Virus record (IMG/VR): IMGVR_UViG_3300035670_000620
Span: 1-38,034 of that record
Source of the DNA: a virus
Reading direction: 5' to 3' (one strand)
DNA: 38,034 bases
The translations under genes and the position numbers were made by a program. The notes below the pieces were generated by a model, which saw only the letters and a list, made by a program, of their open reading frames with translations, had not been told where the DNA came from and did no database searches. Positions 19,696 through 37,600 of the stretch are shown here, one piece after another. The first letter of the stretch is position 1. The number at the start of each line of letters is the position of its first letter.

Positions 19696-20446
19696 CGAAT
19701 TGCTCCACATAATCCCAATTATCAACCACAGTTGCATCATTCGGTGTAGTCGTTACTTGATAGTTTATTGTTGAATTTTCTGGATCTAATGCAGCATATG
19801 TATTAGCAATAGCTGTTTTAATAATACCCTGTTGTTCAACTGGTCCATAGAAGTTTAGACCGAGAGTAAAGTTTAGATTCCAAATTAATGTTGATCTTTG
19901 AGTGTAATCACTTTCATAATTGTCCTCGTAATTGATACTATCAAGAACAATTTGTAAGTCTCTTTTAATACCCATTTCTGGAATATCGTTAATTGTTACA
20001 CAAAAATCTGGATTGAAGAATGGTAAAATCTGTTCTAGAATTTGAAGACCATCGTCTTGATTTTTTGCTGCAATATATAGAGCAATACTCATATCATACG
20101 GTGTGCTAGTGAATTGTGTGCGTAGTTTATTTGGGTCATCACTAGTCCCAACAGCAACATTCTTCGTAAGCAGATTAATTTTCTTAGATGGATTATATTG
20201 TAGTCCAGTAATTTCAAACCCAATTCTAGGTAAAGTAATCGCAGTTGACGCAGGATCAATACCTGGTACGGATGCAATACGAGTTAGAAACTTTTGTTTA
20301 GGCGCATATGCTAGAGGAACTCTAATCGATTGAGCAATTTCACCCGCCGAGTTTTTACGTTCAACTGTAATCTGGTTGAAAATCGTGCCAAAAGCCACAA
20401 TTGCTTTACGAATATGAGAATGATAAAAATGCTGCTTTAGAAACAT
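19673..20446 (-). CDS. 15: Tail sheath stabiliser / tail terminator gp15
   Basis: Caps the neck-proximal end of the tail and joins it to the gp13-gp14 collar. The 257-residue protein (T4 272) starts MFLKQHFYHSHIRKAIVAFG, with the typical FGTIFNQITVER strand, VPLAYAPKQKFLTR (about 43-56), PRIGFEITGLQYNPSKK, and PYDMSIALYIAAKNQDDGLQ, and then FFNPDFCVTIND. These are consistent gp15 features in marine T4-like phages. Its start shares one base with the stop of gene 14, and its 3' end contains the start of gene 16. The order 14-15-16 is that of T4. Confidence 0.93.
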   Translation of the reverse strand: MFLKQHFYHSHIRKAIVAFGTIFNQITVERKNSAGEIAQSIRVPLAYAPKQKFLTRIASVPGIDPASTAITLPRIGFEITGLQYNPSKKINLLTKNVAVGTSDDPNKLRTQFTSTPYDMSIALYIAAKNQDDGLQILEQILPFFNPDFCVTINDIPEMGIKRDLQIVLDSINYEDNYESDYTQRSTLIWNLNFTLGLNFYGPVEQQGIIKTAIANTYAALDPENSTINYQVTTTPNDATVVDNWDYVEQFDETFEQL

Positions 20447-21198
20447 TACGCGGCCCTCACTTGAACTTCACCGAATGGATTGAATGCAGTAAAGTCTAGA
20501 ATGCCTTCCGCTTCAACTTCGAAATCGTTACTGTCATCTAGCGGATCAACATTTGTTGTGCCAGCTTCATTAACAATTATCGTATCACCGGTTTGTGCTA
20601 GGACGTAATCGCCAGACTGCATCAACAATTGCCAACCGAGTAAATCCTGTGTCTTGCCGTCGGTGATACTGTCGATCTCTTCAACCCCAGTATCAATTGT
20701 TTCAGAACTATACTCAAATACTTCACATGACATTCTATAGGTATAGATTTTACCTAGTTGATAAAACGGATTTAGAAAATCAACATAGTTGATCTGAAAG
20801 AAAGTCTTCGTCTTTGGAAAGAATAATAGATCGCCTTCAGATGGACGTTCTGGTAGTTGGAGACTTTCTGCATTTCTACCAACAGATTCTTCCCAGCGGC
20901 GTCTCGCCACAACAAAAGTGGCATTCGAGCGAAACTCAAAGCCAAACTTTGTCATCAACTCGCCCTGCCCCTCGAAGCCTTCGGTATTTTCGAGATACAT
21001 TTCAAGAGGATATGCTTGGGTAAAATATGATAGAGGGTCTTCACCCAAAATAATATCTTCGTTAGCTATTGTTCTAGGAAGATAGTAAACGTCATGTCCA
21101 TAAATCTTCATGCTTTCGATAATAAGATCCTCCAACAAACGCTGTTCGTTTGTTGTGCCAGATGTATTACCAGATTGAAAGTAGAAGTTTGTGGGCAT
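20446..21198 (-). CDS. 14: Neck protein gp14
   Basis: Together with gp13, forms the head-completion collar between portal and tail. The 250-residue sequence (T4 256) opens MPTNFYFQSG and has LLEDLIIESMKIYGHDVYYL, EDPLSYFTQAYPLEMYLE, FGFEFRSNATFVVARRRWEE and RPSEGDLLFFPKTKTFFQIN, all strongly typical of gp14. The second half contains QLGKIYTYRMSCEVFEYSSE. It lies four bases after gene 13 and touches gene 15. Confidence 0.95.
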   Translation of the reverse strand: MPTNFYFQSGNTSGTTNEQRLLEDLIIESMKIYGHDVYYLPRTIANEDIILGEDPLSYFTQAYPLEMYLENTEGFEGQGELMTKFGFEFRSNATFVVARRRWEESVGRNAESLQLPERPSEGDLLFFPKTKTFFQINYVDFLNPFYQLGKIYTYRMSCEVFEYSSETIDTGVEEIDSITDGKTQDLLGWQLLMQSGDYVLAQTGDTIIVNEAGTTNVDPLDDSNDFEVEAEGILDFTAFNPFGEVQVRAA

Positions 21199-26099: not shown

Positions 26100-26315
26100 T
26101 CAATAAGTTCCGCCGTCTATTGCAGTCGGTGTTACTGTAGTAGCAGGATTTACTGCTTCCCATTTCTTTGTTTCCGAATTGTAAATCAAAGTGTAACCAT
26201 CTTGTAATCCGGTAGCATCAACGTCTGCTAAACTTTTAACATCCGCTGCGGCACGCTTGCTTACTATGTTTGTATTTATAGTTTTAGTGTTTGGAACAGT
26301 AACTTTTACAGCCAT
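26100..26315 (-). CDS. Small structural-type protein ending IDGGTY
   Basis: A 71-residue protein with a beta-rich N-terminus (VKVTVPNTKTINTNIVSKRA), then a segment SLADVDATGLQDGYTLIYNSETKKWEAV that resembles the short hairpin repeat found near the ends of many marine-phage fibre proteins, and the ending TAIDGGTY. The same six-residue ending is used by the 549-residue fibre immediately downstream. It shares one base with the upstream 109-residue gene. A TATAAATA box lies inside its coding region. Likely an appendage component. Confidence 0.62.
   Translation of the reverse strand: MAVKVTVPNTKTINTNIVSKRAAADVKSLADVDATGLQDGYTLIYNSETKKWEAVNPATTVTPTAIDGGTY
26273..26280 (-). promoter_or_regulatory. 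Possible intragenic late promoter
   Basis: A perfect minus-strand TATAAATA lies in codons 12-15 of the 71-residue gene, 199 bases before the ATG of the 549-residue fibre gene. It may raise fibre expression, but it could also be chance in AT-rich coding sequence (ThrIleAsnThr codons). Confidence 0.35.
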
Positions 26316-26644
26316 TATTTGGTAACCTCCGGATTGACAACCACAATTCCCTCAAGAACTCTTAGAGTTTCTTCTGGGCTTGTGATTTCGATATCGTAAA
26401 CGTATCTACCAGCCTTTATAGCAGAAGTTTCTTCGGCGGTAAGAGAGATTGTTACTTCGCCATCCAATGGAGAAGACACATCTGCGGTAAAATTTATCGC
26501 AGTGTTAGTATAATAAGATTTACGCATCTGAGACGATGCTTCATAATCAGATAAATCTTTAAGATCACCGAATTGATCAGACACAGCAATAGTGAATGAG
26601 AACGTTGTTCCCTGATCAATATAAATGTTTTGAACTTGTGCCAT
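26315..26644 (-). CDS. Ig-like/BppU-N-like small structural protein
   Basis: A 109-residue single-domain protein with the pattern IYIDQGTTFSFTIAVSDQFG, then DLKDLSDYEASSQMRKSYY, GEVTISLTAEETSAI, and AGRYVYDIEIT...RVLEGIVVVNPEVT. This is the strand order of the small beta-sandwich used at the N-terminus of many phage baseplate upper or fibre-attachment proteins (BppU-N type). It is the first gene of the minus-strand fibre run and has a perfect late promoter 26 bases upstream. It probably attaches to the tail or baseplate, which is inference from fold pattern. Confidence 0.7.
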   Translation of the reverse strand: MAQVQNIYIDQGTTFSFTIAVSDQFGDLKDLSDYEASSQMRKSYYTNTAINFTADVSSPLDGEVTISLTAEETSAIKAGRYVYDIEITSPEETLRVLEGIVVVNPEVTK

Positions 26645-26653
26645 GAGAACCCT

Positions 26654-26661
26654 TATAAATC
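26654..26661 (+). promoter_or_regulatory. Possible plus-strand late promoter of the glycosyltransferase block
   Basis: The plus strand reads TATAAATC, one mismatch (last base) to the late box, 31 bases before the first plus-strand ATG (26693). It lies in the transcribed leader of the divergent minus-strand gene. A sigma70-like TATAAT at 26675-26680 without a good -35 is the alternative. Confidence 0.35.
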
Positions 26662-26670
26662 TTTTCGTTC

Positions 26671-26678
26671 TATTTATA
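26671..26678 (-). promoter_or_regulatory. T4-type late promoter for the 26644 fibre run
   Basis: A perfect minus-strand TATAAATA box 26 bases before the ATG of the Ig-like gene, in the 48-base gap between divergent genes. Confidence 0.8.
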
Positions 26679-26692
26679 ATAATGAGTGAGTA

Positions 26693-27379
26693 ATGAAAAC
26701 TATCTTGATGCTGAAATACGGCACAAAATATAGCAAAGAAGATGTGGATCGTATCATAAATGCGACGAACAGAAAGTATAACTATGTCTGTATTACAGAT
26801 GATGATACACTAGATCCAATAGTAAAGACTATTCCTTTACCAGAAGACGTTGACGGAACATTCATTAAAGTGTGGATGTATGGCCTAGAAGACTTGGGGG
26901 ACGTTCTTTACTTCGACCTTGACATTAGAATACAAAAAGATATAGAACATCTATGGAATTATATTGACGAGCGCCCCACAATATGCTATACATATTGGAA
27001 AGATATTAGTTGGGTAGATCAACCAGCGCAATCTTATAGCACACAATATCTTAGTAACTATAACTCTAGTGCAGTTTTGTGGCGTTCTGGTAGTCCTAAG
27101 GCTAAACAGATTTGGGAACATTTCGAAAAAGACATGGACTACTATATGATCAAATATTGGGGTGACGATAGATTTCTATGGCATGAAAAGTTTGACTTTA
27201 AGTGGTTCCCGAAAGGAGAGTTTTACTCTTTTCTTTATGGAGCAGACTACTATGATCCAGAAAAGAGAGTAGTAGATAGATATCGACCAGAATATACAGT
27301 ATGCCTTTTAAATGGCTTAGATTACTATCCAGGATACGACAAGAAATATGATGATCTTTCTAACAATAAAATGGGGTGA
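26693..27379 (+). CDS. Glycosyltransferase-like protein, paralogue 1 of 4
   Basis: A 228-residue protein beginning ILMLKYGTKYSKEDVDRII. It contains the GT-A-type metal/sugar-nucleotide motif in GDVLYFDLDIRIQKDI (Asp-Leu-Asp at 75-77), a preceding CITDDD strand end, and downstream YNSSAVLWRSG, where the acceptor region is expected. The same signposts (KxGxKYxxxxV, FDLD...Q, NSS...W, YSxxxG, C-terminal (I/V)CLxN) recur in the next three genes, showing common descent. It is the most divergent of the four: the second region between strand 2 and DxD is shorter. It is the first gene of the plus-strand block and overlaps paralogue 2 by 32 bases. Sugar and acceptor are unknown. Confidence 0.68.
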   Translation: MKTILMLKYGTKYSKEDVDRIINATNRKYNYVCITDDDTLDPIVKTIPLPEDVDGTFIKVWMYGLEDLGDVLYFDLDIRIQKDIEHLWNYIDERPTICYTYWKDISWVDQPAQSYSTQYLSNYNSSAVLWRSGSPKAKQIWEHFEKDMDYYMIKYWGDDRFLWHEKFDFKWFPKGEFYSFLYGADYYDPEKRVVDRYRPEYTVCLLNGLDYYPGYDKKYDDLSNNKMG

Positions 27380-28115
27380 CAAATATTCCGAGAAGTATGT
27401 GAATAATCTTTACAAAATGGTAAAGAAGAATTACACAAAAGATTTTAGGTTTATCTGTTACACCGACGATTCAAAAAAGATCAATAAGAACATCGAAGTT
27501 GTTCCTATTCCAGATGATGATCTTTTACATCCAAAATATTATTATGGCAAAGAAGCATTCTGTTTTGACCGAGCAAAGTTTCTAGTATTCAACTCGGAAG
27601 AATGGCTAGATTGTGAGTCAGAAGATCAGTTTTGTTACTTTGATTTGGATCTAGTTATTCAGAACAACATCGATGAAATAGATGAACTGGCCGAGAAACC
27701 CAGAATAGCACATAGTCTGTGGCAACCTGCTGGCCAAATGGATGATAGATTCTTCATTGAGACTAGGGGAACCTACTACAACTCTAGTATGATGCTATGG
27801 TCATATGGTCAATGTCAGCATATATATTACGATGTTTACGAAGAATCTGAAATCATATTTAAGACTTTCTTCAAGGGTAGTGACAACTATCATTTCTGGC
27901 GCCAGAGAGGATTCTGGAAAAACATTCCCGATCATTGGATCTATTCATGGAACAGAGGTCGTTATCATCCAGAAGATGTAGAACGTTTCAAGTTTAGAAG
28001 TGATGCCAAAATATGTCTGTTCAATACAGATAATGTTCCTCATCCTTCAGCAAAAGATCATGTAGAACTTATTGAATGTAATGATAGAAGAATAATTGAT
28101 TTATGGACAAAATAA
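27348..28115 (+). CDS. Glycosyltransferase-like protein, paralogue 2 of 4
   Basis: A 255-residue protein starting MMIFLTIKWGDKYSEKYVNN, with FICYTDDS (strand 2 end), HPKYYYG and the GT-A motif CYFDLDLVIQNNID (Asp-Leu-Asp 99-101). It continues YYNSSMMLWSYGQ, GSDNYHFWRQRGFW, IYSWNRGR and ICLFNTDNVPHP. The DNYHFW aromatic motif near the C-terminus is shared with paralogue 3. Two ATGs (27348, 27351) are possible and differ by one residue. It overlaps paralogue 1 by 32 bases and paralogue 3 by 13. A 120-base sample of this gene (27361-27480) is about 29% G+C by hand count, lower than paralogue 3. Confidence 0.72.
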   Translation: MMIFLTIKWGDKYSEKYVNNLYKMVKKNYTKDFRFICYTDDSKKINKNIEVVPIPDDDLLHPKYYYGKEAFCFDRAKFLVFNSEEWLDCESEDQFCYFDLDLVIQNNIDEIDELAEKPRIAHSLWQPAGQMDDRFFIETRGTYYNSSMMLWSYGQCQHIYYDVYEESEIIFKTFFKGSDNYHFWRQRGFWKNIPDHWIYSWNRGRYHPEDVERFKFRSDAKICLFNTDNVPHPSAKDHVELIECNDRRIIDLWTK

Positions 28116-28939
28116 GAGTCAACTACGTCTGTTGTAAATGGGGTACCAAATACAATCCAGAGTTTGTCAATCGTCTCTATCGAATGGCAAAGAAGCACAC
28201 CCCAAATCGTTTCGAGTTTCATTTCTATTGCTATACAGACAACAGTGAAGGTTTTGAAGATGAAATCAAAGTCATTGACTTCCCAGACATCCCAGATATC
28301 CACCCGAAATACTGGTTCGGTTCAGACGATTTCAAGTATGGTATGGCCCGTTGCTGGGATAGACCCAAGACATTTATCTTCAACACCCACAACTTCGCAG
28401 AAGATAAACCAAATGGCAGATTTGTATTCTTCGATCTGGATGTAATCATTCAAAACGACCTGTCACCGATCATCACTTATGACTTTGATCATCCTACTAA
28501 GTTACGTTCATGGTGGCAGGATCCGCGACCTATGAAGTCTCGTAACTTCAAATTGTCACATGGCGCATACACAAATGGTAGTTGTATGGTGTGGTCGAAT
28601 GATCAAACAGAATGCATCTGGCAGGATGTGTTAGAGAATCAAGAACGTATCTGGTTTACGTTCACGGATGGAACTGACAACTATCATAGCTGGCGATGGG
28701 GTGACTTTAGACGCGATGGTGAACCTCCATTATGGAAACATTTCCCCAGCACTTTTGCATACTCCTACAATAGAGGAAGAGACTGGGATGCAGGTGATTT
28801 AGAAGTATCTAAATATAGAAAGAACTGTATTCTGTGTGTCTTCAACGTTGATTTGCTTCCGTTTCAAGACAATAGCAGAGGCAAGGTGAAGCAGGAATCA
28901 TTAGTTGATCCTGATCTATTAGAGCATTGGAATGTTTGA
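28103..28939 (+). CDS. Glycosyltransferase-like protein, paralogue 3 of 4
   Basis: A 278-residue protein with VNYVCCKWGTKYNPEFVNRL, HFYCYTDNSEG, HPKYWFGSDDF and the GT-A motif RFVFFDLDVIIQNDL (Asp-Leu-Asp 111-113). It continues TNGSCMVWSNDQ, GTDNYHSWRWGDF, FAYSYNRGRDWD and CVFNVDLLPF. It is the longest of the set. The start ATG lies 13 bases inside paralogue 2, and the stop TGA overlaps the ATG of paralogue 4 (TGATG). A 60-base sample near its start (28141-28200) is 43% G+C, unlike the 29% of paralogue 2, so the array may not be one recent duplication. Donor and acceptor are unknown. Confidence 0.74.
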   Translation: MDKIRVNYVCCKWGTKYNPEFVNRLYRMAKKHTPNRFEFHFYCYTDNSEGFEDEIKVIDFPDIPDIHPKYWFGSDDFKYGMARCWDRPKTFIFNTHNFAEDKPNGRFVFFDLDVIIQNDLSPIITYDFDHPTKLRSWWQDPRPMKSRNFKLSHGAYTNGSCMVWSNDQTECIWQDVLENQERIWFTFTDGTDNYHSWRWGDFRRDGEPPLWKHFPSTFAYSYNRGRDWDAGDLEVSKYRKNCILCVFNVDLLPFQDNSRGKVKQESLVDPDLLEHWNV

Positions 28940-29622
28940 TGATTAATATCTACACCGTGAAATGGGGCTTTAAGTATGGACCAGAATATGTCAATCGCAT
29001 ATTCGATGAGTGCAAACAACACATTACTGCCGAGTTTGAGTTTCATTGTATCACAGAACACTCTGTAGGTCTCAATCCAGAAATCACTGTAATTGATTTG
29101 CCCGCAGACAACTACTACGAAAAGTGGTGGAACAAATTATATTTGTTTGATCGTCATCTAATGAGAAAAGATGGAGAAAAGTTATTCTTCGATCTTGACA
29201 TTTCAATTCAGCAAAATATCGACTGTATCGTAGAACATGATCCAGAAGACGGATTGACTTTTGTTCGCACCCACTGGCACAATCTAAACAAGATGAAGAA
29301 AGATTGTAAGGATATACCCCATAAGTATACCGATTTAAACTCAAGTGTTCTTAGATGGAACGATAGGTTAGACATTGACAAAATCACCAAGTTCGTTAGA
29401 GATTATCCTGATCAAATGTTTTTTTATTATCGGGGTCTGGATAATATGTTCGGTCATCAGCGAGAACGTCTTTTAAAGATTAATTATTTTCCTGATGGAT
29501 GGGTATACAGTTACAACTATGGTTACATGTGGCCAACAGATGTGAGAGAACAAGTCATTCGTGAAGAGCCACTAATTTGTCTATATGATTCAATGGAAAG
29601 ACCGCAAGATGCTAAACTATAA
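28939..29622 (+). CDS. Glycosyltransferase-like protein, paralogue 4 of 4
   Basis: A 227-residue protein beginning MINIYTVKWGFKYGPEYVNR, with EFHCITEHSVGLN and the GT-A motif KLFFDLDISIQQNID (Asp-Leu-Asp 85-87). It continues DLNSSVLRWND, YRGLDNMFGHQ, VYSYNYGYMWP and LICLYDSMERP. I start it at the ATG of 28939-28941, which overlaps the stop of paralogue 3 as TGATG, rather than at a TTG four codons upstream. It is shorter than paralogues 2 and 3 in the segment before DxD. It overlaps the methyltransferase-like gene by 14 bases. Confidence 0.72.
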   Translation: MINIYTVKWGFKYGPEYVNRIFDECKQHITAEFEFHCITEHSVGLNPEITVIDLPADNYYEKWWNKLYLFDRHLMRKDGEKLFFDLDISIQQNIDCIVEHDPEDGLTFVRTHWHNLNKMKKDCKDIPHKYTDLNSSVLRWNDRLDIDKITKFVRDYPDQMFFYYRGLDNMFGHQRERLLKINYFPDGWVYSYNYGYMWPTDVREQVIREEPLICLYDSMERPQDAKL

Positions 29623-30265
29623 TTTTTTGAACAACTATCGTAATTGGGGTGAAGGTCTAGATAAGATCAGCCATGAAATGCCATATAAGCATGATGACTT
29701 TCGCAAATCTTTGAATCCAAATACAATGGATGCAGCAATTTGGCTAGTCGAAGAACTGAAAAAGCATGTTGACTTTACGAAGAAACTTGATATCACGATT
29801 CTAAACTCTTGGCTAGGCTTCCCCCTAGTTCCTTTACTATGTGAAAATCTAAGCGTAAAGAAGTTAAATCTAATCGATGTTGATAAAGATGCATTGGAAC
29901 TTTCTAAAGTTTTCAATCGTTATTATTCAGAAAAGGATATCGAACTTAATCACTTGAATTGGGATGTTCCCTTTGCATATCATGATATCAATGCTCTTCG
30001 TACCGATGTTGTTATTTCTCTTTCATGTGAGGCAATGTATCCGCTAAAGAATATGACGACCGCAAACAAGGATTGTATCTTTGCATGCCAATCATCTAAC
30101 GTGTTTAGAGAAATGTATGGCATAAACTGTGTTCCTACAATTCAGGATCATATCGAAAACGTCGGAATAAATAATATTATGTACCAAGGTCAAATCGAAC
30201 AATCATATTGGTCGTGGGACGGCAAGGTAAACTTCGATAGATTTATGGTTGTAGGAAGGAAATAA
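29609..30265 (+). CDS. SAM-dependent methyltransferase-like protein
   Basis: A 218-residue protein with a class-I (Rossmann-like) layout: KKLDITILNSWLGFPLVPLL (59-78) stands where motif I is expected, followed by KKLNLIDVDKDALELSKVF (84-102) with an acidic end of strand 2 (Asp90/Asp92). DVVISLSCEAMYPL further on resembles the motif IV strand and loop. The glycine loop is atypical (NSWLGFP instead of GxGxG), so it could be a divergent or non-methyltransferase member. I choose the ATG at 29609 because GGAAAG lies upstream; an in-frame ATG at 29585 lacks such a site. One base separates its stop from the next gene, so it belongs to the same unit as the four glycosyltransferase-like genes. Confidence 0.55.
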   Translation: MLNYNFLNNYRNWGEGLDKISHEMPYKHDDFRKSLNPNTMDAAIWLVEELKKHVDFTKKLDITILNSWLGFPLVPLLCENLSVKKLNLIDVDKDALELSKVFNRYYSEKDIELNHLNWDVPFAYHDINALRTDVVISLSCEAMYPLKNMTTANKDCIFACQSSNVFREMYGINCVPTIQDHIENVGINNIMYQGQIEQSYWSWDGKVNFDRFMVVGRK

Positions 30266-30266
30266 A

Positions 30267-30941
30267 ATGGGTAAAGCGAAAATCGTTGCACCTCCTCCAA
30301 AAGATTATATTCCAGAACCCCTGATTTCTCCTCCAGTAGAAATAAATTTAGAAGAAACTGTTATTCAAGAATGGTCTGATAGTAATTTAATTGAACAGTT
30401 AGACGAAATAATTGTTCAGGAAGAACCAGTGTCTTCCGAAGAAGAACTCGAAAAAGAGCGTATCGCACAAGAAAAATATGAAGAAATTCAACGGCAAAAG
30501 ATAGAAGCAGAAGAACAGGCTAAGCGAAGAGAAAAGCTGGAAAAGAAAAGTAAGAAAAAAGATACAGAATTATTAGCAGAATTAGAATTATTACGTGCAT
30601 CAAACGAACAACTTGCGCGAGAAAAAGAAGCAGCAGAAAAAGCAAGAGAGGAAACTATTCTTGCTATGCGTAATAAAGCCACTGAACAGCGCGGCAATCA
30701 ATTAAATTTAGTGAAGCAACGCAAGCCTTCTCTTTGGACAAGATTTAAAAATCTACTAAAGAGAAGAAGAATGCAAGTAGCAACGGTAGGAATTAAAAAC
30801 TATGAAACCGCAATTCTACAACGAGCGAGAATTGCGGTCCCAAAGATGTTAGATGATTTAGAAAAGATGCACGAACAGTTGACTATAATGGAAGAACTGT
30901 TAGCAAAATATACCGAGCGTCAAAAAATTAAAGATCAGTAA
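30267..30941 (+). CDS. Coiled-coil protein of unknown function
   Basis: A 224-residue protein in three parts: a Pro/Glu-rich acidic N-terminus (1-55, with APPPKDYIPEP), a long, very charged coiled coil (about 56-145), and a basic segment (QRKPSLWTRFKNLLKRRRMQ, about 151-170) followed by a C-terminal helical hairpin. No membrane segment or catalytic motif is seen. It is the last gene of the plus-strand block and ends tail-to-tail with the oxygenase-like gene, overlapping it by 14 bases. It could scaffold the neighbouring enzymes or be virion-associated; neither is shown. Confidence 0.65.
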   Translation: MGKAKIVAPPPKDYIPEPLISPPVEINLEETVIQEWSDSNLIEQLDEIIVQEEPVSSEEELEKERIAQEKYEEIQRQKIEAEEQAKRREKLEKKSKKKDTELLAELELLRASNEQLAREKEAAEKAREETILAMRNKATEQRGNQLNLVKQRKPSLWTRFKNLLKRRRMQVATVGIKNYETAILQRARIAVPKMLDDLEKMHEQLTIMEELLAKYTERQKIKDQ

Positions 30942-31575
30942 AATCTAATCCAGAAATATCTTCAACCATTGATTTCCAGAGGTCCTCATGGGGAATGACG
31001 TAACCGAGAGTGAGTCGCTTGCTGCGACTCCCAGCACAATGATAGAAGACTTGATCAGTCTCACTCCGCCTACCGAAGTAACCGACCTTGACCGACCAAC
31101 CCTTGGGGTCCCAAAGAGTGACCACTTCTTTTGTTACTGGGTCTAGATATCTAAAGAAGCCAGCATTTTCTTCTGTATTATAGGTTAGAAGAATATTATA
31201 GCCAGCGGCGTTCCAGTTTGTATGCCAGCCCATGAATCCATTTTCTGGATAGTAAACATGAACGGCGTTGTTTCTAGCACCCAGAAAAGAGATAAGTTCT
31301 CTATTTAATTTTTGTTGCTTTTCTCTATGAATGGTTGGAACTGAGTCTACCATACCAATATCACAACAGAATGCTGTTTCTGGATAACCTTCATGATCGC
31401 CGTCTTTATCGACAATTTCGTTCATATACGTTTCGGATGTGCCGCTATCAATATCAAACCCGCGGCGTCTATCTGGTTCACGTAAACTATCATGGTCGGT
31501 TTGAGAGAAGAACCATTCCGTATAGGGAGTGAGTATCTCCAAAAGTTCTGGATTAATCGTATTAGAAAATTTCAT
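30928..31575 (-). CDS. 2OG-Fe(II) oxygenase-like protein with HxN in place of HxD
   Basis: A 215-residue protein with the C-terminal double-stranded beta-helix pattern of 2-oxoglutarate/Fe(II) oxygenases. GFMGWHTNWNAAGYNILL gives His118 and Asn120 where the metal-binding HxD is expected, GFFRYLDPVTKEVVTLWDPK is the middle strand set, and FYHCAGSRSKRLTLGYVI gives the distal His179 and the 2OG-binding Arg187. The Asn replacing Asp would leave only two protein metal ligands, so catalysis may be altered, as in halogenase-type variants, or lost. The ATG (31573-31575) overlaps the stop of the upstream glycosyltransferase as TGATG, so the two are translationally linked. It faces the plus-strand block end to end. 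Confidence 0.62.
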   Translation of the reverse strand: MKFSNTINPELLEILTPYTEWFFSQTDHDSLREPDRRRGFDIDSGTSETYMNEIVDKDGDHEGYPETAFCCDIGMVDSVPTIHREKQQKLNRELISFLGARNNAVHVYYPENGFMGWHTNWNAAGYNILLTYNTEENAGFFRYLDPVTKEVVTLWDPKGWSVKVGYFGRRSETDQVFYHCAGSRSKRLTLGYVIPHEDLWKSMVEDISGLDFTDL

Positions 31576-32273
31576 CACTTGTCCCTGACGGCTGGTGGCA
31601 AGGTATAGTGATAGATGACTATCTCTTGTCCTTGTAATTCTTCTTCTTTATAACCTACAACAAAATTCCAACGGGCATCTGGATCGGGAAATCTTCCAGT
31701 TTTTACACCAGTATTTCCATATGTCAATAGACGCCACATTGTAAATGTATCCCACTGTAATGCGTCTGCTGGATAGTGTTGTCTGTCAAATCCTGGTTCA
31801 TTCTGTCTCTGATATTCTCCCCACCAAGAGGCCATCAACTGCAATGTTTTGGTATTATTGCGATAGATGAATAAGCCACAATGCTCGGTCATTTCTTCTG
31901 TATCAGAAAGTTTAGTCAAAGCAGCATTATACGGACGATTGGCAGTGAATAGAACATCCACATTATCTGGAATCTGATCAAATATTTTTTGAATATCGTC
32001 GTGTTGAACTTCTGTATCACAGTCCATATAAACTGTCAAGTCGTATGGCGTCTTATCTAGCGCCCATAACTTGGCACGCTTATGATATGGCACACCATCG
32101 GTAATAATGTTTTCGAAGATTTCTTCGTCCCCTGGTTCCACCCATTCTGGATGTGTGAACAATGTAATCTTAGCTTCTGGCCAATAGTCTAGTAAAGATA
32201 GAGCAGAGTTTTTAGCAGCGCGGTAGTAGCCTCGGCGAAGAGATGCTACGTAAACAAAACCATTATTCGGCAT
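31575..32273 (-). CDS. Glycosyltransferase, GT-A type
   Basis: A 232-residue protein with the start FVYVASLRRGYYRAAKNSALSL, as in GT-A or GT8-like enzymes, KITLFTHPEW, AKLWALDKTPYDLTVYMDCD (Asp-Cys-Asp at 84-86, candidate DxD), and a C-terminal QWDTFTMWRLL with IYHYTLPPAV (a metal- or phosphate-binding His near the end, typical of such folds). It is only distantly similar to the four plus-strand paralogues. The stop overlaps the start of the oxygenase-like gene, and its start overlaps the end of the upstream 155-residue gene by 11 bases. Sugar and acceptor are unknown. Confidence 0.75.
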   Translation of the reverse strand: MPNNGFVYVASLRRGYYRAAKNSALSLLDYWPEAKITLFTHPEWVEPGDEEIFENIITDGVPYHKRAKLWALDKTPYDLTVYMDCDTEVQHDDIQKIFDQIPDNVDVLFTANRPYNAALTKLSDTEEMTEHCGLFIYRNNTKTLQLMASWWGEYQRQNEPGFDRQHYPADALQWDTFTMWRLLTYGNTGVKTGRFPDPDARWNFVVGYKEEELQGQEIVIYHYTLPPAVRDK

Positions 32274-32730
32274 TCTTTTCTTCTTCCATGATCAGCATGG
32301 TAGCGTATGCCATAACTTCAAGTGCCGATTTCGATCTGCGGATCTTCGTCTTCATCGCCTTGTTGGTAGAGTTTTTGATTACGGGAACTTCGAATGCTTC
32401 TAGCTTGGCTTCGAATAGTGCTTCGTCCTTGCGGCGCTGTTGATCCACCTTTGAACGTTCCATTCTCTGGCGAACTTCTTCTGAACGGCGCTCTTCTCTG
32501 AGGCGAGTATTTTCATCAATCTCGGTCTCAGTAAACTTATTCATAATAGCAATGTAATCTGGATTATTACCTTCACCAGAAACAGAAGCAGGTAGTCGCT
32601 TACCATCTGGATAGATGATAACTACCATTACCTGCTTTTGTTCTTTATTCAGCCAGAAAGGTTCTTCGTAATCTTTTGTTTCGGTAGTAACAACCGAGTC
32701 CAATACCACAGCATCTTCATCCACAATCAT
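32263..32730 (-). CDS. Protein of unknown function, charged helical
   Basis: A 155-residue protein with a beta-type N-terminal half (KDYEEPFWLNKEQKQVMVVI, then YPDGKRLPASVSGEG) and a very charged Arg/Glu-rich helical middle (about 75-115), ending in a short helix ALEVMAYATMLIMEEEK. No enzyme motif is seen. It is the first gene of a small run with the glycosyltransferase and oxygenase-like genes, overlapping the former by 11 bases. A GGAG site precedes the ATG. It may be a chaperone or virion-associated protein, which is a guess from its position after structural genes. Confidence 0.65.
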   Translation of the reverse strand: MIVDEDAVVLDSVVTTETKDYEEPFWLNKEQKQVMVVIIYPDGKRLPASVSGEGNNPDYIAIMNKFTETEIDENTRLREERRSEEVRQRMERSKVDQQRRKDEALFEAKLEAFEVPVIKNSTNKAMKTKIRRSKSALEVMAYATMLIMEEEKNAE

Positions 32731-32775: not shown

Positions 32776-33951
32776 TTATGCGGTGCGAATCCAGAGAGAA
32801 ACCGTGCTTACTGTATCCTTGGTAGAAATAACTGTATCTCCGGCATATGTACCAGAGTATGAGCCAGCATAAGTTCTTGAGCCAGAATAGTTAGCAGAAT
32901 AAGTTCTAGAACCAGCGAACGAGTTACCGTATGATCCAGAATAAGTTCTTGAGCCCGAATAATTAGCCGAATATGTTCGCGAGCCAGCATATGAACCCCC
33001 AACATAACCACCATAATATAAGATATATGTATTAGAATATGTTCTAGCACCACCGTATGTGGTGCTATAAGTTCTATTACCGGCAAAGGTATTAGTGTAG
33101 CTGGTTGAATATGTTCTAGTACCACCATATGTAGTGCTATACGTTCTATCACCACTGTATGAACCAGTGTAGTTCTGAGAAACTACCTGTTCACGGGTGT
33201 CTGAACCCGATCCCATACTAACCCAAGTGCCACCAACAGGAGTTGACGCCTGAAGTTTATATGTACCGACACCAGTATCGATAATACGATTACGGAAGTT
33301 TGGAATCAGTTGTTCAATTTCGGCATCCGACATTTGCTTAATATTGTTGCCGTTATATGTTTTCAACGGACGTAAATCACCGTCGGGTGTCGAAGTTGCT
33401 GCGGTCTTTTGCCAAATATAGTATGTGGTATTACCACCGTTTGCAACGTCGGTAATAGTATATCTTGCTGTCCAAGTACCACCGGCTGGAGCAGAACCTG
33501 CAAGACGATATTGACCAGCGGTATATGAAGATTCTGTTACCATTGCGGTGATAACTTTATCTAGAACATCCGTATCAATTTCACCGTCAGTAAGTTCTTC
33601 GATACCAGAGCCATAGCCAACTGGACGATTGGTAATACTTTCGGACGCGGCCGCAGTTATCTGTTTTGCGTAATAAGTTGTAGTAGTTGATGCACCAGTA
33701 GCAGGGTGAGTGCCAGTCGCTTCTGTTCTATCTGTATCAGCGAATGTACCGATTGCCGTACCAGAAAGTGCATTTGCAGTATCAACGTTGATATCGGCAG
33801 TGTTCGAACCATTACCAGCAGCACCAGCAAATCCTACCGTGATCTTATTAGCAATATAGTTTTTAATTTCTGTGTCCGACATAGCCTGCAAACCCTGAAA
33901 GTTTGAGGACGTAATCGGCGTACCAGATGCTTTGATCTTTAGAGGATTCAT
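32776..33951 (-). CDS. Structural protein with Tyr/Ser/Gly-rich C-terminal repeats
   Basis: A 391-residue protein. The first two thirds contain three related modules introduced by MSDTEIKNYI (24-33), LTDGEIDTDV (120-129) and MSDAEIEQLI (207-216). Two are preceded or followed by Y(R/K)LxxSxPxGGTW (149-160 and 231-243), pointing to internal triplication. Residues 261-371 are a low-complexity repeat built from RTYS and YxGS units, with eight RTY(S/A) copies. A short C-terminal strand segment ends LWIRTA. There are no Cys. Position among fibre genes indicates a virion appendage protein; the Tyr-rich repeat could form stacked beta strands and offers many Ser/Thr/Tyr hydroxyls. I do not recognise a T4 equivalent. 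Confidence 0.7.
   Translation of the reverse strand: MNPLKIKASGTPITSSNFQGLQAMSDTEIKNYIANKITVGFAGAAGNGSNTADINVDTANALSGTAIGTFADTDRTEATGTHPATGASTTTTYYAKQITAAASESITNRPVGYGSGIEELTDGEIDTDVLDKVITAMVTESSYTAGQYRLAGSAPAGGTWTARYTITDVANGGNTTYYIWQKTAATSTPDGDLRPLKTYNGNNIKQMSDAEIEQLIPNFRNRIIDTGVGTYKLQASTPVGGTWVSMGSGSDTREQVVSQNYTGSYSGDRTYSTTYGGTRTYSTSYTNTFAGNRTYSTTYGGARTYSNTYILYYGGYVGGSYAGSRTYSANYSGSRTYSGSYGNSFAGSRTYSANYSGSRTYAGSYSGTYAGDTVISTKDTVSTVSLWIRTA
32839..33171 (-). repeat. RTYS/YxGS coding repeat array
   Basis: About 111 codons encode RTYS or RTYA eight times (starting at residues 269, 279, 293, 303, 325, 335, 349, 359), separated by YSGS, YGG, FAG or YAG blocks. Steps between copies are 10, 14, 10, 22, 10, 14, 10 residues, which is symmetric about the centre. 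DNA repeats are imperfect, so selection on the protein or an old duplication is likely. Confidence 0.85.
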
Positions 33952-34687: not shown

Positions 34688-37600
34688 TTACGCCTGCAGT
34701 GCTATTGCGCGAAGTTCTCTAACCTTAGGAACAACACATTGCTTGGATGAAAGCATAACAACTTTAACTGCAAAAGTCTTGTAGCCGGTATATGTCACAC
34801 CACCGGAAGTATATTCGAATACTCCATCGCCGTTAAGGGAAGTTGATGGAATATCATATGAATACTCTACGAAACTTGATGTTTGAGTCGATAGTGCTTC
34901 TGTAGTTGTAAGTTCAATCCAATCCTTATCATCGAATGAACCAGGATCAGTTTGATGTAAGAACTTTGCGTATACCTTAACACTAGTTCCAGTTGGCAGA
35001 TAGTTACTTAGATATACTCTAAGGTCTTCTGCTTCCTGGCCATCGTCCAATACAACACGGCGTGAAACATACTTAGATGCCGCGCTTCCCACTGTTGTAT
35101 CTTCATCTGTTACATCGTTGTTAATATCGTTCGCAATAACTACCATAGAACATTTTCTAAGATCAATAACTGGCGACACGGTTGATGTTTGAGTGTTCAT
35201 ACCGAGTTTGATGTTGAATGACTTGTCGCCACCAAGATCAGCCTGTTCATTCGAGTATGAGCGAATTGATGCATCAAATGCCAGTTCTGTGGTCTTGTCT
35301 GGAACAAAATTATAATAGGTCGTTGAGCCAGACGATTCTGAACCTGTATTTGCAGTAGCAGAATATGACCAAATTAGATTTGTTGTAGTATGCTCCAGAT
35401 ACCCCACGTTTGCACCAAGGGCATTTAGAATTTTATCTTCAAGTTCTACAATCTCTGCATATGATGTACCGTTACCAACCACATCATTTTGTGAGAACGA
35501 TCCAGATTCCACGAAAATCTTAGCAACATTATACAGTCCATCATAGTCTCTAACGAAACCGTAATTTAGTGTTACTGTGACTTCCGCATCTGTACCAGAA
35601 CCGCTTGAAATTGTCAATGTTGGATTGCTAGTATAACCAGCACCAGGATTTGTTACAACAACATCCGTTACTACGCCACCTGCAATTGTTACATCAACTG
35701 TAGCATTTGTAGTTGCGCCGCCGCCACTTAGCGTATGTGATATTGTTCCATTTGTGTATCCTGTGCCACTATCTACGATATCAAACGTGAAACCATGAAC
35801 CTTATCACCGGATGCAAATGCGCCGCTTGAGAAAGATTCGAATTTCGCATAATCCACATTGAATGTTGACAGTGTGATATCAGCAATAGTACCGACTTCG
35901 AAGTCTGCACGGTTCAGTGCAAACTTAATATCTTCGGCCTGCCATGCAGTCCATGTTCTGTTGTTAGCCGAGGTGAACAGAACGCCAGTATTTGGCTGCT
36001 CTGAGATACGAGTAGTAGTATTAAGTTGATTTTCACCCAATTCAGAAACCCAAATTGTATAGTTTGGATCATTACCTGCAGGTAGAAGAACAAAACAATA
36101 TTCTGTATTATTCTGTAGATAGACCGGTGATGGGAATGTGAATGTGGTAACCGTTTCGCCATTATCAGGATCAACATTAATCTGGCTTGGATTTAGAGTT
36201 ACTTCACTAAATGGTAGAACTGTATTGCCAGGATAACCGTTGACCACTTCACGAAGTTGGAGTGTAATGGGAGCGGTTTCAGACTTAGTTCTAAAGAAGA
36301 TATCAAGAGAAGTCACATAGCAGCCAGAAGGCATCTGCGAAACATAGAATGTTTGTGCAATTGGATCCAGACGAATGCTACTGAAATCTGCCCAACATGC
36401 ATTTCCGATTGCACCCCAGTTCCAATTCCAACAGATATCGAAATCTGCTTGCGGAGTTTCTGTTAGAACAACTGGATCAGTTGTTTCATCTACAGGTTCT
36501 TCATTAGGTGTTGTCGTTGTCGTTGTCGTATTGTTGACGGTTTCTGTTTCAGTTATTGTAGCAGCTGGCGTTGAGGTATCACCAACAGTAGCAGCAACGG
36601 CAGTGACAGTGGGTGCTGGTATTGTACCGACTGTTCGTTCATCAAGTCTTACGGTTGTGCTATTTGTGTCCGTAACTGTTCTACTACCACTAACCGTGTT
36701 CATAGAAACATTAGCAACTCTGGTTGAGATTACTGTATCTTGAACGTTTTGTGATAGACCATTTGCAGAGAATACTTGAGTTGCAGAAGTAGTTACAAAC
36801 TTATCTCTATTTTTTGAATCGTCTACAAGACGGAACTTCTTTTCGCCTACGCGGAAAGTGCCAGCAGGAATTCTAAACTGACCAACGCAATTACCGTTTG
36901 CGTCTGTGATAAGAGGATCACCCCAGTCTCCATTAGCATTAGCAGACTGTAGAATCGAATTTTCTACGTTCGCAGTGAGTGCAGCACTTGATAGGGGGCG
37001 GCAATTATCTGCAACCGCAACTCCGTCAAAGAACGGATAAACGCGAGTTAGTGGTTTCAATCTAGTTGCAGTAAATGTAACTGTGATTGAGCGCATGAAA
37101 GGAATAATAGATGTATTAGTTACTCTAGGTCCAATGCGTTGTGTCTGTGTTTCTGGAGTCACAGACATTTGAATACCTTGGCGAGTTTGGCGTTGTTCTG
37201 TAGTTGTTGTTACAACTTGAGTTTGTTCCTGGAAGATTGTATTACCATCAACGCGAGTATTTCCACCGACAATAGCGCCTTCTGATACTCCAGTAACTCT
37301 ACCTGTGCCAAGGTCTTGCCAATCTTCCCACTGGGTACCCCATGCATCTGCCATAGTTTCCCATGCGTCATAGTTACCATCGAAGTTAGCTGCAATATCA
37401 GGAAGAACTGTAGTATCTGTCCAGTTATCAACTGGCGGATCTAATTGCATATCACCAGAATATACGAAAAGAAGTTCGCCGACGCAGTTTCTAAACTTAG
37501 ATGCAAAGAGATTGCTAGTCAATGCAACTTCTGTATATGGTAGTGTTAGTAGATCGCCTGTCTTTTGAACGTTTGTTGATTGATCAGAAAGATATCTAAG

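Follow-up and report, generated by a model that had tools for sequence, protein, structure and literature searches.

Glycosyltransferase (GT) clusters that serve surface adhesins are known from bacteria: in the streptococcal island of the serine-rich repeat adhesin PsrP (GlyA-GlyG), several GTs are encoded beside a repetitive surface adhesin, which they modify stepwise. In pelagimyophages, the host recognition cluster that extends from VrlC to gp14 is nonsyntenic, and the GTs in it have been read as lipopolysaccharide (LPS) enzymes (PMC7029224). Neither the presence of GTs in this part of T4-like genomes nor the placing of a GT cluster beside a repetitive adhesin is new in kind. Here we analysed a GT cassette in the variable fibre region of IMG/VR virus record IMGVR_UViG_3300035670_000620, positions 1 to 38,034 (38,034 nucleotides, referred to as the window). 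Four plus-strand GTs (GT1-GT4), a methyltransferase-like gene (MT), an oxygenase-like gene (OX), a further GT (GT5), a small gene (g32263) and a repeat fibre form one conserved unit. The data are best fitted by a module that is expressed late and glycosylates the neighbouring tail fibre, a reading that we consider probable. The features concerned are the following.

26315-26644, minus: LtfC-like tail-fibre assembly gene (phrog_1084, E 1.3e-27; phrog_3304 'L-shaped tail fiber protein assembly', E 1.9e-22)
26645-26692, between the strands' genes: divergent late-promoter region, 48 bp (plus box TTATAAAT at 26653-26660; minus box TATAAATA at 26671-26678)
26693-27379, plus: GT1, predicted GT-A glycosyltransferase (phrog_1962 glycosyltransferase, E 4.5e-12)
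27348-28115, plus: GT2, predicted GT-A glycosyltransferase paralogue (phrog_1962, E 2.1e-7; 40% identity to GT3)
28103-28939, plus: GT3, predicted GT-A glycosyltransferase, the most constrained cassette gene (AlphaFold2 model, pLDDT 84.9)
28936-29622 (ATG start), plus: GT4, predicted GT-A glycosyltransferase paralogue (phrog_1962, E 5.3e-8)
29585-30265, plus: MT, predicted class I S-adenosylmethionine (SAM)-dependent methyltransferase fold (AlphaFold2 pLDDT 85.4; NodS Z 15.6, BioC Z 15.1)
30267-30941, plus: CC, fast-evolving coiled-coil protein (highest ratio of first and second codon position to four-fold site divergence, 0.46)
30928-31578, minus: OX, 2-oxoglutarate (2OG)-oxygenase-like, HxN...H...RxT (16-sequence alignment; 30% identical to its positional counterpart in Phage C48C1)
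31575-32273, minus: GT5, further glycosyltransferase with a DCD motif (weak Glycos_transf_2 match, E 0.0077; 31% to C48C1)
32263-32730, minus: g32263, small conserved gene flanked by GT5 and the fibre (also found at this position in C48C1-like phages)
32776-33951, minus: fibre with Gly-Ser-Arg-Thr-Tyr repeats, the proposed glycosylation substrate (repeat content; repeat-rich fibres in the same place in C48C1 and relatives)

Like the pelagimyophage cluster, this locus belongs to a T4-like phage and carries its GT genes close to gp14 in the variable fibre region. In contrast to that cluster, the clade of the window keeps a fixed cassette in all sampled relatives, and the cassette tracks the genes on the fibre side. 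With the PsrP island it shares the GT cluster beside a repetitive adhesin, and the GT8-type GlyE is the top fold match (Z 16.7); however, the carrier is a phage and not a bacterium, the adhesins are not homologous, and GlyE is tied with LgtC, UGGT and glycogenin. Phage C48C1 (OQ984149) and its relatives have the repeat fibre, g32263, GT5, OX and LtfC in the same order, but most of them have no GT in the slot between OX and LtfC, and those that do have one or two, on the fibre strand. Tetraselmis viridis virus S20 encodes a GT2-like protein (33% over 46% of the query) and a run of GTs with a methyltransferase near head and tail genes, but it is a different phage type in which the OX-GT5-LtfC order is not seen. 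A limited literature search found neither a cassette of this kind, fixed, late, linked to a fibre and with a graded number of GTs, nor a matching system of phage fibre glycosylation.

Layout, late promoter and conservation

The window stems from a T4-like phage, whose major capsid protein shares 66-68% identity with its counterparts in Methylophilales phage Melnitz and Pelagibacter phages. Its head, tail and packaging genes lie on the minus strand, and the variable fibre region extends between gp14 (20446-21198) and a large gene at 34688. Within this region, positions 26693-30941 hold the four GT paralogues, MT and CC on the plus strand. A preliminary description of the window had called this the only plus-strand coding block, and we can confirm this: the open reading frames (ORFs) are real, and every other plus-strand ORF of at least 80 amino acids sits opposite a longer minus-strand gene. 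The genes do overlap or nearly touch, as had been stated (GT1/GT2 by 32 nt, GT2/GT3 by 13, GT3/GT4 by 4, GT4/MT by 38, with a gap of 1 nt between MT and CC), and these overlaps together with the conserved late promoter support the proposal of a single transcript. The description was mistaken in placing fibre genes directly to the right of the block. The right-hand neighbours are OX and GT5, which converge on it from the minus strand and are followed by g32263 and only then by the repeat fibre. The plus-strand block makes up the larger half of the proposed module; OX and GT5 on the minus strand, likewise parts of it, had been overlooked. On the left, the LtfC-like gene is the neighbour and divergent partner of GT1 and marks the edge of the GT slot.

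The gap between LtfC and GT1 contains T4-late-type boxes in both directions; of 39 distinct sequences, all have the minus-strand box and 35 the plus-strand box. They are conserved although the flanking intergenic bases vary. In the window, TATAAATA occurs eight times (2.7 expected), exclusively on the minus strand, and five of these occurrences, among them those of gp23 and gp22, lie shortly upstream of a gene start. On the plus strand, GT1 alone has a TTATAAAT in such a position. Since the plus box adjoins the ribosome-binding region of LtfC, part of its conservation may stem from another cause.

Relatives of the cassette were found in uncultured T4-like lake and estuary phages. A search of viral contigs with GT3 gave 428 stretches, of which 80 were kept, and the loci were grouped by contig; up to the ends of the contigs, all have this cassette with its gene order unchanged. 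To offset the bias of this sample towards GT3, LtfC was chosen as an independent query (80 loci). Here, too, the GTs are in the same order in all loci with sequence beyond LtfC, and MT, OX and GT5 are present where the contigs are long enough. CC is the sole part of the cassette that is not always detected; no homologue was found between MT and OX in three loci (L005, L055 and L257).

The GTs are unequally conserved. GT3 is 86-92% identical in most relatives, even where GT1 has dropped to 57%. Within one class, divergence at four-fold sites is 0.49 for GT3 and similar in its neighbours (range 0.43-0.55), whereas at first and second codon positions it is 0.042 in GT3 and 0.080-0.199 elsewhere. 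A recent horizontal sweep was rejected on this pattern, as the four-fold sites are as divergent as those of the neighbours while the first and second positions have barely changed; judged from these alignments, the conservation of GT3 is due to purifying selection. The earlier proposal of stepwise or substrate-diversified glycan building is at most compatible with the unequal conservation of GT1-GT4.

Matched divergence and graded GT number

Protein distances were correlated over 17 contigs, with partial correlations that allow for gp14 as a control for the genome backbone. GT1 and OX distances are correlated with r 0.93, and the partial r is still 0.89, so that genome-wide inheritance alone is insufficient as the cause of this match. 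Partial r is likewise high for GT2-OX (0.85), OX-GT5 (0.83) and GT1-GT5 (0.71), while GT1 shows no link with GT3 or GT4 (0.06 each). The same division is seen against the fibre-adjacent g32263: GT1 (0.84), GT2 (0.79), OX (0.83) and GT5 (0.65) follow it, GT3 (-0.07) and GT4 (-0.13) do not, and the divergence of GT4 follows MT instead. For the partial correlations of 0.65-0.89 (GT1, GT2, OX and GT5 with g32263, and GT1 with OX) p is 0.0005, a value to be read with the reservation that Mantel-type tests among related sequences overstate certainty.

The type of fibre changes together with GT1. Arg-Thr-Tyr (RTY) repeats are found where GT1 is 76-92% identical to that of the window. Where the identity is 58-63%, the repeats are rich in Asn and are usually carried by two fibres. 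Two lineages uncouple fibre type from backbone and form the real independent evidence: in c681, gp14 is only 70% identical but GT1 is 76% identical and the fibre is of the RTY type, and in c912, gp14 is 85% identical but GT1 is 62% identical and the fibre is of another type.

A comparison of copy number in related phages, as had been suggested in the preliminary description, gave 0, 1, 2 or 4 GTs in the slot between OX and LtfC. Phage C48C1 has the repeat fibre, g32263, GT5, OX and LtfC in the order of the window and no GT between OX and LtfC. A search with its OX yielded 80 relatives, of which at least 63 have this order without a recognisable GT in the slot, and others have one or two GTs of the window's GT family exactly there. 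These GTs abut OX and share the strand of OX and LtfC; in the loci that were displayed, repeat fibres lie upstream. In the clade of the window, the slot holds four GTs and MT in inverted orientation. By this comparison of gene order, it is the position of the cassette and not its orientation that is constant, and because the GTs of the distant relatives lie on the fibre strand, they appear to work together with the fibre genes. In one locus (L412 7700-13087), the slot is filled by a giant Ser/Val-rich repeat protein, and there are no GTs.

Fold and motifs of the enzymes

That the four plus-strand GTs are paralogues, as first described, is evident from a similarity far above chance: within the window's own record, GT3 as query retrieves GT2 (E 4.6e-48, 40%), GT4 (2.1e-20) and GT1 (1.5e-7). 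For GT4, an alternative start is possible at a TTG at 28927. Base composition does differ (GC 0.36, 0.35, 0.42 and 0.37 for GT1-GT4), and the shared KxGxKY...V start, DLD and NxS motifs are invariant or almost so in 56 aligned sequences; the aromatic C-terminus, by contrast, is not a conserved common feature of the alignment. D111-L-D113 is invariant in the 56 sequences. DLD is kept in every distinct GT1-GT4 relative examined, where the few substitutions are all in the residues that follow it, so that the loss of DxD named beforehand as an argument against a transferase did not occur. Stops seen in 36 GT1 relatives proved to be an artefact, as these alignments overran the gene end by a few codons.

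Structure prediction of GT3 gave a nucleotide-sugar fold of the GT-A type. Its nearest neighbours in the PDB are GlyE (Z 16.7), LgtC (16.4), UGGT (16.4) and glycogenin (15.8), ranks less than one Z unit apart being ties; matches with Z 15-17 span 200-240 residues at 7-15% identity. The fold was modelled for GT3 only and the paralogues were assigned through alignment, and on this basis a GT-A fold similar to GT8, GT24 and glycogenin is supported for the plus-strand GTs. They resemble the GT8/GT24 transferases (LgtC, glycogenin, UGGT, LARGE1) in fold and in the DxD right after a core strand, but apart from the low identity, no curated family threshold is passed by any protein of the window. For Pfam GT8 (PF01501), GT1 reaches 14.6 bits where 24.3 are required, 9 of the 56 relatives have matches (best E 7.5e-4), and GT2-GT4 do not match. 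PDB sequence searches with four profiles gave chance matches only, and GT1, GT3 and the fibre are without a match in any isolate phage.

According to its model, MT has a Rossmann-like class I methyltransferase fold. GT5 is matched by the Glycos_transf_2 profile in 12 of 16 relatives and has OX as its syntenic partner. In OX, the distal H180 and the RxT residues R188 and T190, with the Arg about 8 residues past the distal His, are invariant in 16 sequences. The first motif of the HxD/E...H iron triad, however, is H119-x-N121 in all 16, including the distant C48C1 (seen for instance at L090 9717-10424), and we therefore call OX oxygenase-like only; the HxN would be explained by a metal site of another kind or by a role other than catalysis. 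No 2OG family was among the Pfam matches at E up to 1 for the 16 members, and no PDB sequence match was found.

Several relatives carry additional genes. A Methyltransf_24/TylF-like methyltransferase, of a kind known from sugar O-methylation, follows MT in six loci (L029 4775-5377; L051 8841-9437; L036 4113-4712; L056 10146-10745; L064 4287-4889; L059 4526-5143). A nucleotidyltransferase-like gene stands between OX and GT5 in four (L008 6597-7172, the only one with a weak PolyA_pol match; L011 5833-6408; L061 11415-11990; L049 4231-4788). A weak SPASM-like C-terminal domain is fused to GT2 in L257 (4734-6131) and forms a separate protein after GT2 in L086 (6302-7792).

Target of the cassette

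If the adjacent fibre is the target, OX, GT5, GT1 and GT2 would act on or near its Tyr/Ser/Thr (or Asn-rich) repeats, which OX may first hydroxylate; GT3 and GT4 would then lengthen the glycan chain with host nucleotide sugars, and MT would methylate it. The outcome would be a glycosylated virion fibre with altered host recognition, stability or protection. This split into fibre-facing (OX, GT5, GT1, GT2) and glycan-extending enzymes (GT3, GT4, MT) is drawn from the divergence pattern. A modular assembly line, in which the former are matched to the repeat chemistry (Arg-Thr-Tyr or Asn-rich), the latter form a common set under strong constraint that is independent of the type of fibre, and GTs accumulated stepwise in one slot from none to four across T4-like phages, is a more tentative proposal, which we hold at somewhat below even chances. 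The donor sugars are probably supplied by the host, since no NTP_transferase-family gene was found in the records of ten relatives, several of them fragments; a PF01370 epimerase-type gene is present in three of six records, distant from the cassette.

Several points weigh against fibre glycosylation. Most C48C1-like phages have GT5-OX but an empty GT slot, and the extra GTs are hence inessential to the C48C1 fibre type. Enzyme and fibre classes share a genome history, the correlation leans on about two informative lineages, and the fibre itself was compared by repeat type only, outside the partial-correlation test. The activity of OX is uncertain given HxN instead of HxD, the order of the enzymes in glycan building is a guess, and LgtC, an enzyme that acts on LPS, is one of the fold neighbours.

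Of the targets named in the preliminary description, a virion appendage is thus the best supported, a host glycan stays a rival, and a nucleotide or DNA is unlikely. The main rival, which we regard as rather unlikely, is that the GTs remodel a host surface glycan (LPS) and so block superinfection or the sticking of progeny to debris. Such a role was proposed for GTs that pelagimyophages carry in the corresponding region (PMC7029224), the LPS galactosyltransferase LgtC is among the top fold neighbours of GT3, and late expression would suit release too. However, the GTs of distant relatives are on the fibre strand beside OX and LtfC, GT1 and GT2 vary with g32263 and not with the genome backbone alone, and OX has no obvious part in LPS remodelling. 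It is improbable that the substrate is another virion protein, such as capsid or tail tube, or an intracellular host protein, and the fibre-side position a mere insertion site: capsid glycosylation by phage GTs has been suggested in mycobacteriophages such as Maravista (PMC11256854) and the region is a known site of inserted genes, but the order is constant in all sampled relatives, and GT1, GT2, OX and GT5 track g32263 rather than gp14 in their divergence. Glycosylation of phage DNA bases or nucleotides against restriction was rejected as highly improbable: the window does come from a T4-like phage, a group in which DNA glucosylation is well known, but the T4 enzymes AGT and BGT have the GT-B fold, while the fold of the cassette GTs is GT-A, near GT8 and GT24, and the genes lie in the late structural region behind a late promoter.

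The purpose of the sugar-transfer genes in many aquatic T4-like phages is disputed. The cassette links such GTs to one fibre via gene order, promoter and matched divergence, and the natural series of slots with 0, 1, 2 and 4 GTs offers a test of whether the fibres with which phages bind their hosts are glycosylated by the phages themselves. If so, the fibre sequence alone cannot predict receptor binding.

Some minor observations concern the phages as a whole. psbA is absent from the records of seven relatives, and a cyanobacterial host is therefore without support. A contig filed under a Bifidobacterium breve metagenome-assembled genome (MAG) carries the phage cassette (L085, GT3 88% identical) and is probably mis-binned phage DNA. 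The window encodes a peptide deformylase at 81-596 (phrog_2890, E 1.2e-39), and a 171-kb relative has 24 tRNA genes in a single cluster (L101 5259-13427) and a tmRNA gene (L095 14720-15093).

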